Assembly: GCA_011391865.1 (NCBI GenBank)
Contig: JAABPV010000054.1
Coordinates: 1 to 63,147 of the forward strand
Reading direction: 5' to 3'
Source of the DNA: Desulfobulbaceae bacterium
Lineage (GTDB): Bacteria; Desulfobacterota; Desulfobulbia; Desulfobulbales; Desulfobulbaceae
Length of the DNA: 63,147 bases
Both the position numbers and the translations under genes were made by a program. This document shows positions 29,402-46,690 of this stretch, one piece after another; positions within the stretch are counted from its first letter, which is position 1; each line of letters begins with the position of its first letter. The notes under the pieces were generated by a model. It was given only the letters and a program-made list of their open reading frames with translations. It did no database searches and was not told where the DNA came from.

Positions 29402-30574
29402 ATGAAACGTTGGTTTGCTGCGCTCTGCGCGCTGGCATTGTGCTGTTCGGTGGCATCCTGCCGCTCCGAGCGGCAGACGGTGATCAAAATTGGTGTCAAC
29501 GCGCCGATCACCGGCGACATCCCCAAGGTCGGCGAGGGCACCAAGTATGCGGCGGAGCTGTGGCTGGAAGAAGTCAATAAGGCGGGCGGCATCGAGGTCG
29601 GCGGCAAGAAGTATCCGGTCGCGCTGGTGGTTGAGGACAGCGAGGCCAAGGCCGAGTCAGCGGTGAAGGCCAACACCAAGCTGATCACGCAAGACGAGGT
29701 GCTGGCGATTGTCGGGCCGCAGTCCTCGAAGGAGGCCATTCCGGCGGGCGCGGTGGCCAATGATAAGCAGACCCCGATGATCAGCCCGTGGTCGACCAAC
29801 CCAGACACCACCGCTGGGCGGCCCTACGTCTTCCGCGCCTGCTTCCTCGACCCTTTCCAAGGGCCAGTGCTGGCGAACTTCATCAGCGAGGAGTTCAAGT
29901 TCACCAAGGCGGCGGTGCTGTATGATGTGGCCAGCGATTATCCCAAAGGGCTGGCTGAGTTCTTCAAGAAGGCATGGGAGGCCAAGCACGGCGCAGGCTC
30001 GGTGGTTGCCTACGAGAGCTTCACTACCAAGGATGCCGATTTCAGCGCCCAGCTGACCAAGATCCTGCACTCCGGCGCAGAAGTACTCTTCACTCCGCAG
30101 TATTACAACGAGGTGGCGTTGATTGTCCAGCAGGCCAAGGCGCTTGGCTGGAAAGGGCCGATAGTCGGCAGCGACAGCTGGGGTTCCGCCGAGACCGTGC
30201 AACTCTGCGGCGAGGCCTGCTACGGCCAGTTCTTCAGCACCCACTACGCCGCTGCCGGAGCGCAGGGAGCCACCAAGGCCTTCATTGACCGCTACAAAGC
30301 CAAATACGGCTACGTGCCAGACGACGTGGCCGCGCTGACCTGGGACGCTTTAGGCTTGGCGCAGCAGGCGATCTCCTCGCTCCCGCAACTGAGCGGCAGT
30401 ATCCAGAAAGACCGGACAGCGGTGCGCGACGCGCTGGCCAAGATTCAGGACTTTGACGGCATCACCGGCAAGATGACCTTCTCCGGCAGTGGTGATCCAA
30501 AGAAGTGTGCTGTGATCGTCAAGATTAGCGACAAGGGCGAGTACGAGTTCTACAAGTCGGTTTGCCCGAACTGA
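29402..30574 (+). CDS. LivJ-type branched-chain amino-acid-binding lipoprotein, orphan
   Basis: 390 aa. A lipoprotein signal with lipobox VASC (C20) is followed by a type I periplasmic binding fold: KIGVNAPITGDIPKVGEGTKYAAELWLEEVN, GIVGPQSSKE-like LAIVGPQSSKEA, AVLYDVASDYPKGLAEFFK and VGSDSWGSAETVQL. It would bind an amino acid or small amide outside the inner membrane. No permease or ATPase genes are nearby, so it either serves a distant transporter or acts as a sensor. AAGGAGACAAGG lies upstream of the ATG. Confidence 0.9.
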   Translation: MKRWFAALCALALCCSVASCRSERQTVIKIGVNAPITGDIPKVGEGTKYAAELWLEEVNKAGGIEVGGKKYPVALVVEDSEAKAESAVKANTKLITQDEVLAIVGPQSSKEAIPAGAVANDKQTPMISPWSTNPDTTAGRPYVFRACFLDPFQGPVLANFISEEFKFTKAAVLYDVASDYPKGLAEFFKKAWEAKHGAGSVVAYESFTTKDADFSAQLTKILHSGAEVLFTPQYYNEVALIVQQAKALGWKGPIVGSDSWGSAETVQLCGEACYGQFFSTHYAAAGAQGATKAFIDRYKAKYGYVPDDVAALTWDALGLAQQAISSLPQLSGSIQKDRTAVRDALAKIQDFDGITGKMTFSGSGDPKKCAVIVKISDKGEYEFYKSVCPN

Positions 30575-30698: not shown

Positions 30699-30839
30699 GC
30701 GCACGAATGCATGGTCGGAGTCCGATCAAATGCATGGTTTCGATCCGATCAAATGCATGGTTTCGATCCGATCAAATGCGTGGTTTCGATCCGATCAAAT
30801 GCATGGTTTCGATCCAATCAAATGCGTGCATTCGTGCGC
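30699..30839. repeat. Tandem array of 23-bp units inside 13-bp inverted repeats
   Basis: Five full units start at 30707, 30730, 30753, 30776 and 30799, with a partial sixth at 30822; each begins ATGCATGG or ATGCGTGG and contains TTTCGATCCGATCAA. Apart from the first, copies differ at one or two bases. The array is bracketed by GCGCACGAATGCA (30699-30711) and its exact reverse complement TGCATTCGTGCGC (30827-30839). GATC and ATGCAT occur in nearly every unit. Confidence 0.93.
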
Positions 30840-31728: not shown

Positions 31729-31815
31729 GGACCGTCTGCTGCCAGATGCGGACAGCAACCTTGTCAGTGCAGTTACGATCAAACTAGGGTGCCTGACTGC
31801 AAGGAGGAGGTTGTC

Positions 31816-33921
31816 ATGAAATTTTCTGCTGTGAAATCCAAATGGTTTTATTTTTTGCTGCTGATCAATCTGATTTTTGGAGCGGCACTGGCAAAGACAC
31901 TGCTTCAATATCGTCAATTTATTTCTTCAGAAGAACAAAGTGAAAAAGAACGGGTTGTTTCTTTAACCCAAAAAGCGGCCAGAGATTTAGGGGAAATTGT
32001 TGAGAGGGTAGAAAATCAGGCGCAAGAATTGGCTGACACCTTTTCAGCTCAACAGAATCTTTCTCCTGAGGCCATTGAAAAGCAGCTCTCTGGTGCGCTG
32101 GACAACAATACGGATTTGTTAGGCAGCAGCGTCTTTTATGGCCCCTATGCCTACAGCAAGGACAAATATTTGTTTGGACCATATCTCCATATCAAAGATG
32201 ATGGAGGACGAGAAATCGTTGACGTTGGTTCATTGTATGATTACACGCAAGAAGATAAAAAATCAAACTTTTTTCATCTCCCGTTTAATGAAAACAAGGC
32301 GATGTGGACAGTTCCTTTCTGGGGTGAGGCAAGCAAATCCCTTCTTTTGACATATAGTGTTCCGTTTTATATCGATGCAAAAAAAGAATCTCCTTCAGGA
32401 GTTATCGTGCTGTCAATTTCTCTTGATAAAATCAAAGAAATAGTAGGGTCTCTTGATGTAGGCACGAATGGACTTTCTGCTCTGACGACAAAAGAAGGAA
32501 ATTACATATATTATCATATTTATGAATATGTCACAAAAATGCGCAATCTAACTGATGTCGCGAAGGAAGAGGACGACAAAGACAGGATGTTTATTGCGCA
32601 GCAGGCAAGGGAGTTGAAAGGAGGAATTCTTGACCACATCAGCGTCTCCACGCGCAAGCCTGCTTGGTTAGTCTGGGAGCCGGTGCCGTTCTCTGGCTGG
32701 TCGCTACAAGTGACCTTTTTAAAAGAGGATATGATCGGAGACCCAAATATAATAAAACGGAAAAAGATCATTATCCTTGTCAGTGTCATTCTTCTTTCTG
32801 TGGCATTATGCGCTTTGATTCTTCAAGCTGCACCAGCGGACGCGCACAAGAAACAAGGGATTTTCTCTGCTGTCTCATCGTTGTTGCTGCTGTCTGGAAT
32901 TGGGTTTATTTGGGGGATATATCTTAATAATTACAAATTAGTCCGCAACGATATCGTAGAAGTCACTTCATACGGGAAACGTGAAAAAATAAAACAGGAA
33001 TATCATGTGCTTTGCCGTGACAACAATCTTGAACGTCCTCGTTATTTGCCAACAGGAATTTACATTGAAACAATTAAATTTATTAATCAAAATGAAATTG
33101 AGCTGACAGGATATGTATGGCAGAAATATGAAAAAGGAGAGCATGACGACCTGTCTCGAGGAATAGCTTTCACCAGAGTTTCTTCGTCAAAAATAACAGA
33201 AGTCCTAAAACAGCAGCAAGGGAACCAAGAAGTTGTTCGATGGTCATTCTCAGCGTCAATCAGGCAAAATATCGATTATTCAAGATATCCAATAGACCAT
33301 GGACGAATTTCGTTGAAAATTGTTCATAAAGATTTGAATCACAATGTTGTTCTTGTTCCAGATTTTGAGTCTTACCACAGGATAGTACCGATATTAAAGC
33401 CTGGTGTTGATAAGAAAGCATTTGTTCCAGGATGGATCATCACCGGAAGCAGGTTTGAGCTTCAAAAGAAAGATAATGATACAAACTTCGGTGTCAAAGA
33501 AACTATCTCAAAGCAAAATTTTCCTGTGCTTGCATTTTCAGTCTCTATAAAGAGATTGTTTGTTAATGCATTCATTTCAAACCTTGTTCCAATGATTGTT
33601 GTCTATGTGATGCTTTTTGCTTTTATCTCTATAAAAGCTGACGTAAAAAGTTTATTAAGCATGTGCAGCGGCATGTTCTTTGCCATAGTTGTCGCCCATG
33701 TCAACGCAAGAAAGGACATAGCCGTTTATGAAATATTTTATCTGGAATATTTTTATATAGTTACGTATTTAATACTGATATTTCTTGTTTCTGCATCTAT
33801 AAAGTTTCATCATAAAGATGAAATATATGAAAAAAAGCTGTTGAGCACAGCAAGACTGCTCTATTGGCCTGTTGTAAGCAGTTCTTTTTTTGTCATTACA
33901 GCAATTTTGTTTTACAGGTAA
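31816..33921 (+). CDS. Cache sensor fused to a pentameric ligand-gated ion-channel-like protein
   Basis: 701 aa. TM1 (10-29) is followed by a periplasmic double-Cache-like domain (30-310; SVFYGPYAYSKDKYLFGPY, AMWTVPFWGEASKSLLLTYSV, GVIVLSISLDKIKEIV). A helical hairpin (TM2 317-338, TM3 349-370) leads to a second periplasmic domain (372-578) resembling the pLGIC ligand-binding domain: GIYIETIKFINQNEIELTGYVW, the Pro-loop YPIDHGRISLKI (491-502; consensus YPFDxQxL) and GWIITG (539-544). Four helices follow: M1 586-606 with the conserved VPM, M2 608-628, M3 637-662, M4 681-700. GGAGGAGG precedes the ATG. The gene is much AT-richer than its surroundings, which suggests acquisition. The channel assignment rests on motif order, not alignment. 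Confidence 0.62.
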   Translation: MKFSAVKSKWFYFLLLINLIFGAALAKTLLQYRQFISSEEQSEKERVVSLTQKAARDLGEIVERVENQAQELADTFSAQQNLSPEAIEKQLSGALDNNTDLLGSSVFYGPYAYSKDKYLFGPYLHIKDDGGREIVDVGSLYDYTQEDKKSNFFHLPFNENKAMWTVPFWGEASKSLLLTYSVPFYIDAKKESPSGVIVLSISLDKIKEIVGSLDVGTNGLSALTTKEGNYIYYHIYEYVTKMRNLTDVAKEEDDKDRMFIAQQARELKGGILDHISVSTRKPAWLVWEPVPFSGWSLQVTFLKEDMIGDPNIIKRKKIIILVSVILLSVALCALILQAAPADAHKKQGIFSAVSSLLLLSGIGFIWGIYLNNYKLVRNDIVEVTSYGKREKIKQEYHVLCRDNNLERPRYLPTGIYIETIKFINQNEIELTGYVWQKYEKGEHDDLSRGIAFTRVSSSKITEVLKQQQGNQEVVRWSFSASIRQNIDYSRYPIDHGRISLKIVHKDLNHNVVLVPDFESYHRIVPILKPGVDKKAFVPGWIITGSRFELQKKDNDTNFGVKETISKQNFPVLAFSVSIKRLFVNAFISNLVPMIVVYVMLFAFISIKADVKSLLSMCSGMFFAIVVAHVNARKDIAVYEIFYLEYFYIVTYLILIFLVSASIKFHHKDEIYEKKLLSTARLLYWPVVSSSFFVITAILFYR

Positions 33922-36589: not shown

Positions 36590-37798
36590 TTACTTCTTGC
36601 CCTTGCCTGCCGCAAAGTTTTCTTGCGTGGCATCGTATTTCTGCCCGCTGTCCACCGCGTCGCAGCCATTCTGATTATGCGGCACCCGGACTGGCAGCTG
36701 CATCGTTGCCTCGCCGCCTCTGCCGTCGCTGGCAACAAAGGTGATGACATACACCCTGCCGTCACCGTGGACATCGCGTTCTTGTCGCAGCCAAGCAGTG
36801 TCTGTACCGATGCCTGAGGCATCATACGGATCCTTGCCGACAGGCTCATCGCTGGTGATGGAAAGAATCCGTGCCGTCACCGCATCGCCGTCCGGGTCGC
36901 AGACAAAGCCTGTTAAAGGAACAAGCGTGTAGCCTTTGTGATTCGGCGACCAGAGGCACTGGAACGCCGCCGCGTCGCACAGCACCGGCGGATGATTGGC
37001 GATGAAGATCACCTCTTCGTAAACGCCGCACTGCTCGCCGCCCCCTGCGAGATGGGCGTTGAAGGTGATCGACACGTCGTTGGTCTCATTCGGCGGGCTG
37101 GTGACATTGACGACATGCTCCTCGTCAATGCTCACGTTCCAGCCTGCTGGCACCGGAGAAGTCGACCAGACCACATTGTTGAACCAGTTGCCAGCCGGGT
37201 GGAAGCTGATGTAGTCGTCCAGATCAAAGGGCGGGAAGCCGAAGCTGTATTTTTGATCCGGGACGTTCACGGTCATGGTTAGCTGAGTAAAGTCTGGGAT
37301 ATTATCATTATCTATACCACTTGGCAACCCTGCTATCTGCCTCAAACGATCTACTTTAGCATTTTGTTTCTTTGCTTCTCCTGAACATAGTTTTTCTTGT
37401 CCTAACTTTTCCTTCTCAATGGCAAGCTCTTTTAATATTTCAACCTCTTTTTCAGCCCATTTCTTAGCATCTGCATCATCTAATGTCGCAGATAGATAAC
37501 GAAGCATAAATATTCTTTCGTCACCTTGCTTGGCTAATGTGTTGTTTATTATTTCAAATTCTTGTTTTTGCTTGGAATCAGTATTGCCAAGATGTAAAGA
37601 CTCTGTTTTTTGTTTGGCAATCTCGATGTCTTGCTGTTTACTCAGATAGTTGCCTACTATATCGGGCACAGTCAGAAAAATACTGACGATTCCTGCTATA
37701 GCTGTAAGCCATGCAGGGCTATGCCAGATAGGCATGTTTTTTTGTTCTAACTTTTGTGAAGCAGCTTCTTCCTGTGTCGAAGTCTTATCTTGATTCAT
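36590..37798 (-). CDS. Chimeric single-TM protein: AT-rich coiled-coil front, GC-rich Ig-like back
   Basis: 402 aa. Residues 1-28 polar; one membrane helix (about 31-50, WLTAIAGIVSIFLTVPDIVG); a long charged helical region (55-160, ERIFMLRYLSATLDDADAKKW...). From about residue 170 the sequence changes to beta-rich Ig/cadherin-like modules (NWFNNVVWSTSPVPAGWNV; VCDPDGDAVTARILSIT; VYVITFVASDGRGGEATM), ending in a Lys/Gly tail. Base composition changes at the same place (near 37290). Just upstream an isolated signal-peptide frame remains (37785-37934). I infer that an exported Ig-like protein lost its own N-terminus and gained a new membrane anchor. Confidence 0.65.
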   Translation of the reverse strand: MNQDKTSTQEEAASQKLEQKNMPIWHSPAWLTAIAGIVSIFLTVPDIVGNYLSKQQDIEIAKQKTESLHLGNTDSKQKQEFEIINNTLAKQGDERIFMLRYLSATLDDADAKKWAEKEVEILKELAIEKEKLGQEKLCSGEAKKQNAKVDRLRQIAGLPSGIDNDNIPDFTQLTMTVNVPDQKYSFGFPPFDLDDYISFHPAGNWFNNVVWSTSPVPAGWNVSIDEEHVVNVTSPPNETNDVSITFNAHLAGGGEQCGVYEEVIFIANHPPVLCDAAAFQCLWSPNHKGYTLVPLTGFVCDPDGDAVTARILSITSDEPVGKDPYDASGIGTDTAWLRQERDVHGDGRVYVITFVASDGRGGEATMQLPVRVPHNQNGCDAVDSGQKYDATQENFAAGKGKK

Positions 37799-45100: not shown

Positions 45101-46690
45101 ATGAACTACGCTTGGTTTGAAAAAATTGCCCCGCATCTTGCTGGCAGCCCGCTGGTGCTGATCGGCTTTGTATTGCTGCTCGCCTTTGGCATTCACTCGC
45201 AGCTGATAAAATCCGGCCTGCTGTCTAAAGTGGACAAGAAAGACAGCGGTCTGATCATCCGGCTCTTTCTCCGCTACGGCTTCTGGCTGGCCTTGACCCT
45301 GCTGCTGGCGGGAGTGGGCTTGGAGGCGTGGAAAAGCTACGTGGCAAAGATTCCGCCCGTTGATGCGGCAAAGCTGGCGGCAAAGCTGATGGAGCCGCTG
45401 CAAGGCGAGCTGGCCACGAAGAACGAGCAGATCAAAGCCCTGACCGAAGCCATCACCGCCTTGTCGAAAGCCGATGCGCCTGCCAGCCGCATTGATGAAG
45501 CCCTGCAAGCCTTGCAGAGCGGCGATGCCAAGCAGGCCGAGGCCATTTTTGCTGAGGTGCTGAAAACAAAAGAGGCGCAAGGCCGCGCCGCGAACAAAGA
45601 AGCGGCAGCGGCGGCCCGGCATTTGGGCGCATTGGCGTACATGGACAACACCAAGGAAGCCCTTGCCGCCTACCAGAAGGCCGTAGAGCTTGACCCGGAC
45701 AATGCTGACGACTGGAATTGGCTTGGACTTCTGTTGTGCCGCACAGGAGAGCTTGCGCAGGCGGAGGCGGCATATCGCAAGGTGCTGGCCGCAGACAGGA
45801 CGGAAGAAGGGCGGGCAATTGTTGTCGGCAATCTGGGCAATGTATATAAGACACGCGGCGATTTGGCGCAGGCGGAAGAAATGTACAGGAAAGCTCTGTC
45901 GCTCAACGAAGCCTTGGGCCGCAAGGAGGGAATGGCGGCGAATTACTGCAATCTGGGCCTTGTGTATAAGACACGCGGCGACTTGGCGCAGGCGGAGGAG
46001 ATGCACAAAAAGGCTTTGGCACTCAATGAAGCCTTGGGCAGCAAAGAAGGCATGGCGCAGAATTACGGCAATCTGGGCATGGTGTACGAAACACGCGGCA
46101 ACTTGGCGCAGGCGGAGGAGATGCACAAGAAAGCTATGGTGCTCGCTGAAGCCTTGGGCAGCAAGGAAGGCATGGCGGCGAATTACGGCAATCTGGGCAA
46201 TGTGTATTTTAAACGCGGCGAGCTGGCGCAGGCGGAGGAAATGTACAAAAAAGCTCTGGTGCTGAATGAAACCTTGGGCAGCAAGGAAGGCTTGGCGGTG
46301 AATTATGGCAATCTGGGCTTGGTGTATGCAAGACGCGGCGACTTGGCGCAAGCGGAGGAGATGCACAAGAAGAGCCTTGCACTTGACGAAACCTTGGGCA
46401 GCAAGGAAGGAATGGCGGCGAATTACGGCAATCTGGGACTTTTGTATTCCACACGCGGGAACTTGGCGCAAGCGGAGGAGATGCACAAGAAAGCTCTGGC
46501 ACTCGACGAAGCCTTGGGCAGCAAGGAAGGAGTGGCGGCGAATTACGGCAATCTGGGCAATGTGTATAAAAAGCGCGGGGATTTGGCGCAGGCGGCGGAG
46601 CTGTGGAAGAAAAGCCTGCGGTTGTATCAGGAAATGGGACATCCTGATGCAAAGAAGATACAAAAATGGCTGGATGATTTGGCCAAATAG
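45101..46690 (+). CDS. Membrane-anchored TPR protein with eight near-identical 40-residue repeats
   Basis: 529 aa. Two N-terminal helices (about 16-35 and 54-74), a short coiled coil, two divergent TPRs, then about seven to eight 40-residue units of the form YGNLGxVYxxRGDLAQAEEMHKKAL followed by xLxEALGSKEGMAAN. The DNA repeats every 120 bp with very high identity, so unit number can change by recombination. AAGGAGGCGG precedes the ATG. The helix pair would anchor the TPR solenoid on the inner membrane. It is probably a scaffold; no partner is evident. Confidence 0.88.
   Translation: MNYAWFEKIAPHLAGSPLVLIGFVLLLAFGIHSQLIKSGLLSKVDKKDSGLIIRLFLRYGFWLALTLLLAGVGLEAWKSYVAKIPPVDAAKLAAKLMEPLQGELATKNEQIKALTEAITALSKADAPASRIDEALQALQSGDAKQAEAIFAEVLKTKEAQGRAANKEAAAAARHLGALAYMDNTKEALAAYQKAVELDPDNADDWNWLGLLLCRTGELAQAEAAYRKVLAADRTEEGRAIVVGNLGNVYKTRGDLAQAEEMYRKALSLNEALGRKEGMAANYCNLGLVYKTRGDLAQAEEMHKKALALNEALGSKEGMAQNYGNLGMVYETRGNLAQAEEMHKKAMVLAEALGSKEGMAANYGNLGNVYFKRGELAQAEEMYKKALVLNETLGSKEGLAVNYGNLGLVYARRGDLAQAEEMHKKSLALDETLGSKEGMAANYGNLGLLYSTRGNLAQAEEMHKKALALDEALGSKEGVAANYGNLGNVYKKRGDLAQAAELWKKSLRLYQEMGHPDAKKIQKWLDDLAK

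Follow-up and report, generated by a model that had tools for sequence, protein, structure and literature searches.

A Desulfobulbaceae gene predicted to join a Cache sensor domain, through a membrane hairpin, to a pentameric channel core

In a 63,147-nucleotide stretch of DNA from a Desulfobulbaceae bacterium (hereafter the window), we identified a gene for a protein in which a transmembrane (TM) helix, a double-Cache sensor, a TM hairpin and a pentameric channel (pLGIC) core with four helices follow one another in this order. Sequence and structure model support a subunit with seven predicted TM helices, and we infer that it very probably forms a homopentameric channel whose pore opening would change when the Cache domain binds a solute, either directly or by way of the hairpin and the linker behind it. 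A first-pass annotation, made from the sequence alone, had proposed the channel fold, the Cache sensor, the hairpin and the seven-helix subunit, and profile, structure-model and comparative evidence now stand behind each of these; the YPID motif at residues 491-494, W540, R580, P592 and the four C-terminal helices all lie where it had placed them. The open reading frame is intact (701 codons, zero internal stops), the reverse strand across it contains short frames only, and the gene is present in one copy in the source genome (Table 1).

Table 1. Positions in the window of the gene and of the predicted features of its product.
Feature	Position	Strand	Basis
Shine-Dalgarno AAGGAGG	31801..31807	+	8 nt upstream of ATG; sequence reading
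Whole gene, Cache-hairpin-pLGIC protein, 701 aa	31816..33921	+	ATG at 31816, stop ending 33921
TM1, residues 12-30, N terminus predicted cytoplasmic	31849..31905	+	hydropathy; TPR repeats ahead of TM1 (L057)
Periplasmic double-Cache sensor, residues about 40-310	31933..32745	+	Pfam; model match 3lib
TM2, residues about 316-338, hairpin helix 1, from Cache to membrane	32761..32829	+	hydropathy; model
TM3, residues 343-371, hairpin helix 2	32842..32928	+	model; same position as the single N-terminal anchor in minimal members
Helix 386-402, ahead of core strand 1	32971..33021	+	full-length and core-only models
pLGIC extracellular beta-sandwich domain, residues 404-580	33025..33555	+	profile; GLIC structure match
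Pro-loop YPID, residues 491-494	33286..33297	+	conservation in 53 cores
Pre-M1 arginine R580	33553..33555	+	R in 52/53; aligned with GLIC pre-M1 Arg
M1, residues 582-606, conserved P592	33559..33633	+	model; conservation
M2, residues 610-634, predicted pore-lining	33643..33717	+	model; profile alignment to GLIC M2
M3, residues 642-665	33739..33810	+	model
M4, residues 669-700, invariant P685, C terminus predicted periplasmic	33820..33915	+	model; C-terminal fusions in L058/L060/L071

The prediction that the N-terminal half is a Cache domain can be regarded as settled. In Pfam, the window protein matched PF22673 (MCP-like_PDC_1) above its cut-off (E 2.5e-13) and PF02743 (dCache_1), the model that the first-pass annotation had named as a check, with an E value of 6e-10 and a score of 39.4 bits, slightly below the 45-bit cut-off; a dCache_1 match was present in 51/51 full-length relatives. 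The phmmer matches were to the dCache sensor structures 3lic, 3li8 and 3lib, and an AlphaFold2 model of the full-length protein (51 sequences, monomer, mean pLDDT 88.7, pTM 0.85) superimposed on 3lib over 253 residues (Z 27.6, rmsd 3.3 A) and also matched many chemoreceptor Cache domains. Both the sensor fold and the TM helices on either side of it resemble those of the dCache_1 group of histidine kinases and chemoreceptors (3lib, 3lic, TlpQ, PctA), but the output of these receptors is a kinase or MCP signalling module, whereas the window protein has a channel core instead. We derive no ligand from the conserved positions inspected in the pocket region of the Cache domain.

In the model, as in most relatives, the two hairpin helices (310-338 and 343-371 in the model) join the Cache half to the core half. 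A hydropathy scan of 80 relatives counted precisely seven TM segments in 42 of them, and most of the others were minimal, had one near-threshold segment or had a missing N terminus. Fusions at both ends of related proteins bear on the orientation of the subunit. A Spirulina member (L057:3229-7101) has a long TPR-repeat region ahead of TM1, and three Anaerolineales proteins of 1314-1399 aa with Cache, hairpin and pLGIC core (L058:4849-8790, L060:4819-9009 and L071:4672-8868) have a family 5 extracellular solute-binding protein domain fused behind M4. Because the former region is of cytoplasmic type and the latter domain is extracellular, the N terminus is predicted to lie inside and the C terminus outside; a location of Cache and core that is outside for both fits with seven helices. 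At two loci (L009 and L018) the member has little or nothing of the Cache half and a Cache-coding ORF lies just upstream, so a frameshift or split gene is possible there.

Some relatives have only part of this layout. In minimal relatives, about 370-400 aa long, a single anchor helix occupies the TM3 position and is followed by the core; 12 of these five-helix proteins without Cache (L059, L064, L069, L070, L073, L076, L077, L081, L082, L083, L086 and L087) form one supported clade in a quick tree, and the Pfam channel models are blind to them too. Two Chloroflexi members (L063 and L084) have a signal-like helix, the hairpin and the core without Cache (a Pfam scan of L063 found no Cache), which reads as a hairpin that can survive without its sensor. 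Since the minimal members keep one anchor and these two keep the hairpin, we propose that the hairpin is both the exit helix of the Cache domain and the anchor of the channel. The existence of minimal members without Cache, which form one clade, would also suit a channel that is gated by its extracellular domain alone (or, as in GLIC and DeCLIC, by protons or cations), with the Cache domain as a passive or assembly module. We consider this rather unlikely, as the Cache domain is present in all of the full-length members aligned, whose sequences are very divergent, and is joined to the core through a conserved hairpin.

The pLGIC fold predicted for the C-terminal half is likewise settled by profile and model. 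A profile built from 53 cores (the window protein and 52 relatives) matched GLIC, the proton-gated channel of Gloeobacter violaceus, with a best E value of 4.9e-6, and 60 of the 60 matches listed were GLIC or GLIC chimeras; this alignment extended from the middle of the sandwich to M4 and paired the Pro-loop, the pre-M1 Arg and the M1 Pro, which the two proteins have in common, each with its counterpart. Residues 404-701 of the full-length model superimposed on GLIC over 278 residues (Z 20.1, rmsd 2.8 A), and a core-only AlphaFold2 model (monomer, pLDDT 88.4) did so over 276 residues (Z 20.2, rmsd 3.2 A) and also matched GluCl and a GABA-A receptor (Z about 19). The pLGIC beta-sandwich core expected from the first reading of the sequence is thus recovered in the monomer model as the GLIC fold, with Z about 20. 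The whole core fold is alike at 13-15% identity, but GLIC has neither Cache nor hairpin, and its M2 chemistry is unlike that of the window protein.

The pattern of conservation across the 53 cores is consistent with this assignment. Position 492 is Pro and position 435 Trp in 53/53 cores, position 494 is Asp in 43 and Glu in 10, R580 is conserved in 52/53 and P592 in 47/53, and the Pro-Thr-Gly at 412-414 is near-invariant. A Pro-loop motif [F/Y]PxD with an invariant Pro, together with an arginine partner, are signatures of the superfamily (Jaiteh et al. 2016, PMC4795631). The Cys-loop cysteine pair around the Pro-loop is absent from the window protein, whose only cysteines are at 332, 400 and 617, as expected for a prokaryotic member.

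The register of M2 is uncertain, as the profile alignment to GLIC has an 8-residue gap before this helix. In the best alignment, and subject to this uncertainty, GLIC 9' falls on S618, which is Ser in 21 and Ala in 17 of 53 cores and not the usual hydrophobic gate, and GLIC 13' falls on the near-invariant Phe622 (primed positions, including -2', follow the GLIC numbering). No conserved acidic residue in the 53 cores corresponds to the GLIC -2' Glu, and these cores have no conserved acidic selectivity ring. A call of cation versus anion selectivity from the M2 residues was dropped because the register is too insecure. The unusual M2 and the lack of an acidic ring are a point against a conducting pore, and would be compatible with a protein that has kept the pLGIC fold as a non-conducting chemoreceptor, with a core that merely reports ligand binding to partner signalling proteins; some relatives also adjoin MCP, cyclase or other Cache genes. 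Such a receptor is improbable, however, because the M1-M4 bundle, the Pro-loop Asp/Glu and the pre-M1 Arg are strongly conserved, which is hard to explain without gating, and because a cytoplasmic signalling domain is absent.

The channel models of Pfam and NCBIfam matched the core of neither the window protein nor its 52 relatives, and the Neur_chan_LBD and Neur_chan_memb matches to which the first-pass annotation had looked were found in none of the 53 members. PF02931 also had no match in the genome of Saccharophagus degradans (formerly Microbulbifer degradans), whose member was named a pLGIC in 2004. Since PF02931 misses even a member described then, we attribute the failure to the limited reach of the models and do not take it as a refutation. 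When the single sequence was searched against the PDB, the matches were to Cache only, plus a weak match to a GLIC chimera (E 0.22), so the channel assignment rests on the profile and the fold. The silence of the Pfam and NCBIfam channel models would be expected if the protein were a Cache receptor whose C-terminal membrane domain was unrelated and whose motifs arose by chance, but this reading is refuted at the fold level by GLIC profile and fold matches across the whole core and by the invariant Pro of the Pro-loop, and we give it almost no credence.

In the homopentameric channel that we favor, each subunit has, by sequence and model, an N-terminal helix, the periplasmic double-Cache domain, a hairpin that reaches the cytoplasmic side and returns, the pLGIC extracellular domain and M1-M4, and the M2 helices of five identical subunits would line the pore. 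The Cache domain would bind a small solute, for which the subunit-interface site of the channel itself may be a second place of binding; the resulting change may reach the channel along the hairpin and the linker at 372-402, or because the periplasmic domains touch one another, and would open or tune the pore such that a nutrient or chemical cue becomes an ion flux. dCache receptors usually act as dimers, and the mismatch of this with five-fold symmetry is a point against the pentamer. A more specific version, in which a Cache-gated pentamer of 35 helices receives its signal via the membrane hairpin and the near-invariant Phe at or near 13' is the gate, is offered tentatively, as a possibility that we think less likely than not. 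We know of no solved pLGIC that is gated via a membrane helix hairpin.

Proteins that combine Cache and pLGIC domains have been described before. The passages of Tasneem et al. 2004 (PMC549065) that concern these proteins report MCP-N/Cache domains fused to prokaryotic pLGICs in Methanosarcina, Cytophaga and M. degradans, speak of a signal peptide, further domains and a 4-TM unit, and place the M. degradans gene in a predicted operon with a Na+/H+ symporter; the fusions described there are N-terminal only, plus operon partners, and neither a hairpin between Cache and core nor a seven-helix subunit is mentioned. The S. degradans genome contains a single member, of 977 aa, with Cache, hairpin, core and seven helices, which aligned with the window protein across all three parts (E 2e-44). 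Its gene is followed in the operon by genes for a family 3 solute-binding protein and then an SDF (sodium:dicarboxylate) symporter, which hints at dicarboxylates or amino acids as the cue for that member only. This protein, one of the Cache/MCP-N-fused ART-LGICs of 2004, has the same Cache-then-core order and seven helices as the window protein; it differs in its longer N-terminal region and its set of operon partners, which the window locus does not have. Because the S. degradans member is homologous, has the same layout and lies in a described operon, we assign the window gene to the branch first seen in 2004. It is a further member of an architecture known since then and not a new system. 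Phrase searches for Cache together with Cys-loop channels, in papers outside subscription, returned Tasneem et al. alone, and full-text literature searches of the same scope returned no experimental study of a Cache-bearing member and no later work.

Two other kinds of channel invite comparison. DeCLIC, from a Desulfofustis relative, had been put forward in the first-pass annotation as a precedent for a Cache-like N-terminal module. Like the window protein, it has a pLGIC core (a Foldseek match) and a large N-terminal periplasmic domain, but the lobes at its N terminus are calcium-binding domains with a jelly-roll fold (PMC12664993) and not Cache, whereas the N-terminal domain of the window protein is Cache and not jelly-roll; the right precedent is the set of Cache fusions in the passages of Tasneem et al. 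2004. A second small-molecule sensor also precedes the core in pLGICs fused to a type I periplasmic-binding-protein domain, which those passages report from Magnetospirillum and Bradyrhizobium. At L007:214-2400 the fusion joins such a domain, instead of Cache, to a distant pLGIC-like core that contains YPFDRQ; this core is 21% identical to that of the window protein and has no Pfam channel match.

The gene neighbours vary between lineages, with no common operon partner. A rhodanese-type gene lies directly downstream, sometimes overlapping the channel gene by a few bases, at 11 Thiotrichales-type loci (L017, L024, L028, L031, L032, L035, L040, L041, L045, L053 and L056; three were Pfam-scanned), and four proteobacterial loci have one unnamed downstream gene in common; the window locus has neither of these genes. 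A periplasmic-binding-protein gene at 29402-30574 was rejected as a partner, since another gene and about 1.2 kb lie between. Between this gene and a metal-resistance-like gene there are 5 copies of a 23-bp tandem repeat (AATGCATGGTTTCGATCCGATCA) at 30706-30825. Elsewhere in the window, a coding tandem repeat with a 120-bp unit, present in about 6.5 copies (45826-46600), probably belongs to a TPR-type protein.

Pattern scanning across 84,980 species genomes yielded 91 confirmed related loci, of which 80 were kept. The family is therefore represented by 91 or more loci from at least ten phyla, among them Acidobacteria, Planctomycetes, Bacteroidota, Chloroflexota, Cyanobacteria, Pseudomonadota, Bacillota, Elusimicrobia, Zixiibacteria and Armatimonadota; no relative was found on viral contigs. 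In the order of the source organism a match was found in 8/194 genomes, one of the matches being distant, and there was none in the three genus-mates sampled or the family-mates listed. The GC content of the gene is 38.4%, as opposed to 57.3% for the whole window. This low GC content and the absence from sampled genus- and family-mates make a recent transfer into the source genome likely, in line with what the first-pass annotation had suggested from the AT-rich gene. In a quick tree, which points to no particular donor lineage, the window protein is a long branch within mixed Acidobacteria, Bacteroidota and other members. A second AT-rich gene lies nearby, on the minus strand at 36590-37798 (402 aa; Pfam gave nothing above the cut-off).

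As of 2025, DeCLIC had been described as the only pLGIC with an extra N-terminal domain that was even partly characterised (PMC12664993). The window protein is a bacterial relative of the neurotransmitter receptors of nerve cells, equipped with another chemical sensor and with two additional membrane helices. Its family is missed by standard domain models and occurs in at least ten bacterial phyla. The ligands of Cache-type sensors are often easily found by thermal shift, and the family may offer a direct route to what prokaryotic pLGICs sense and to how a second sensor controls the pore.
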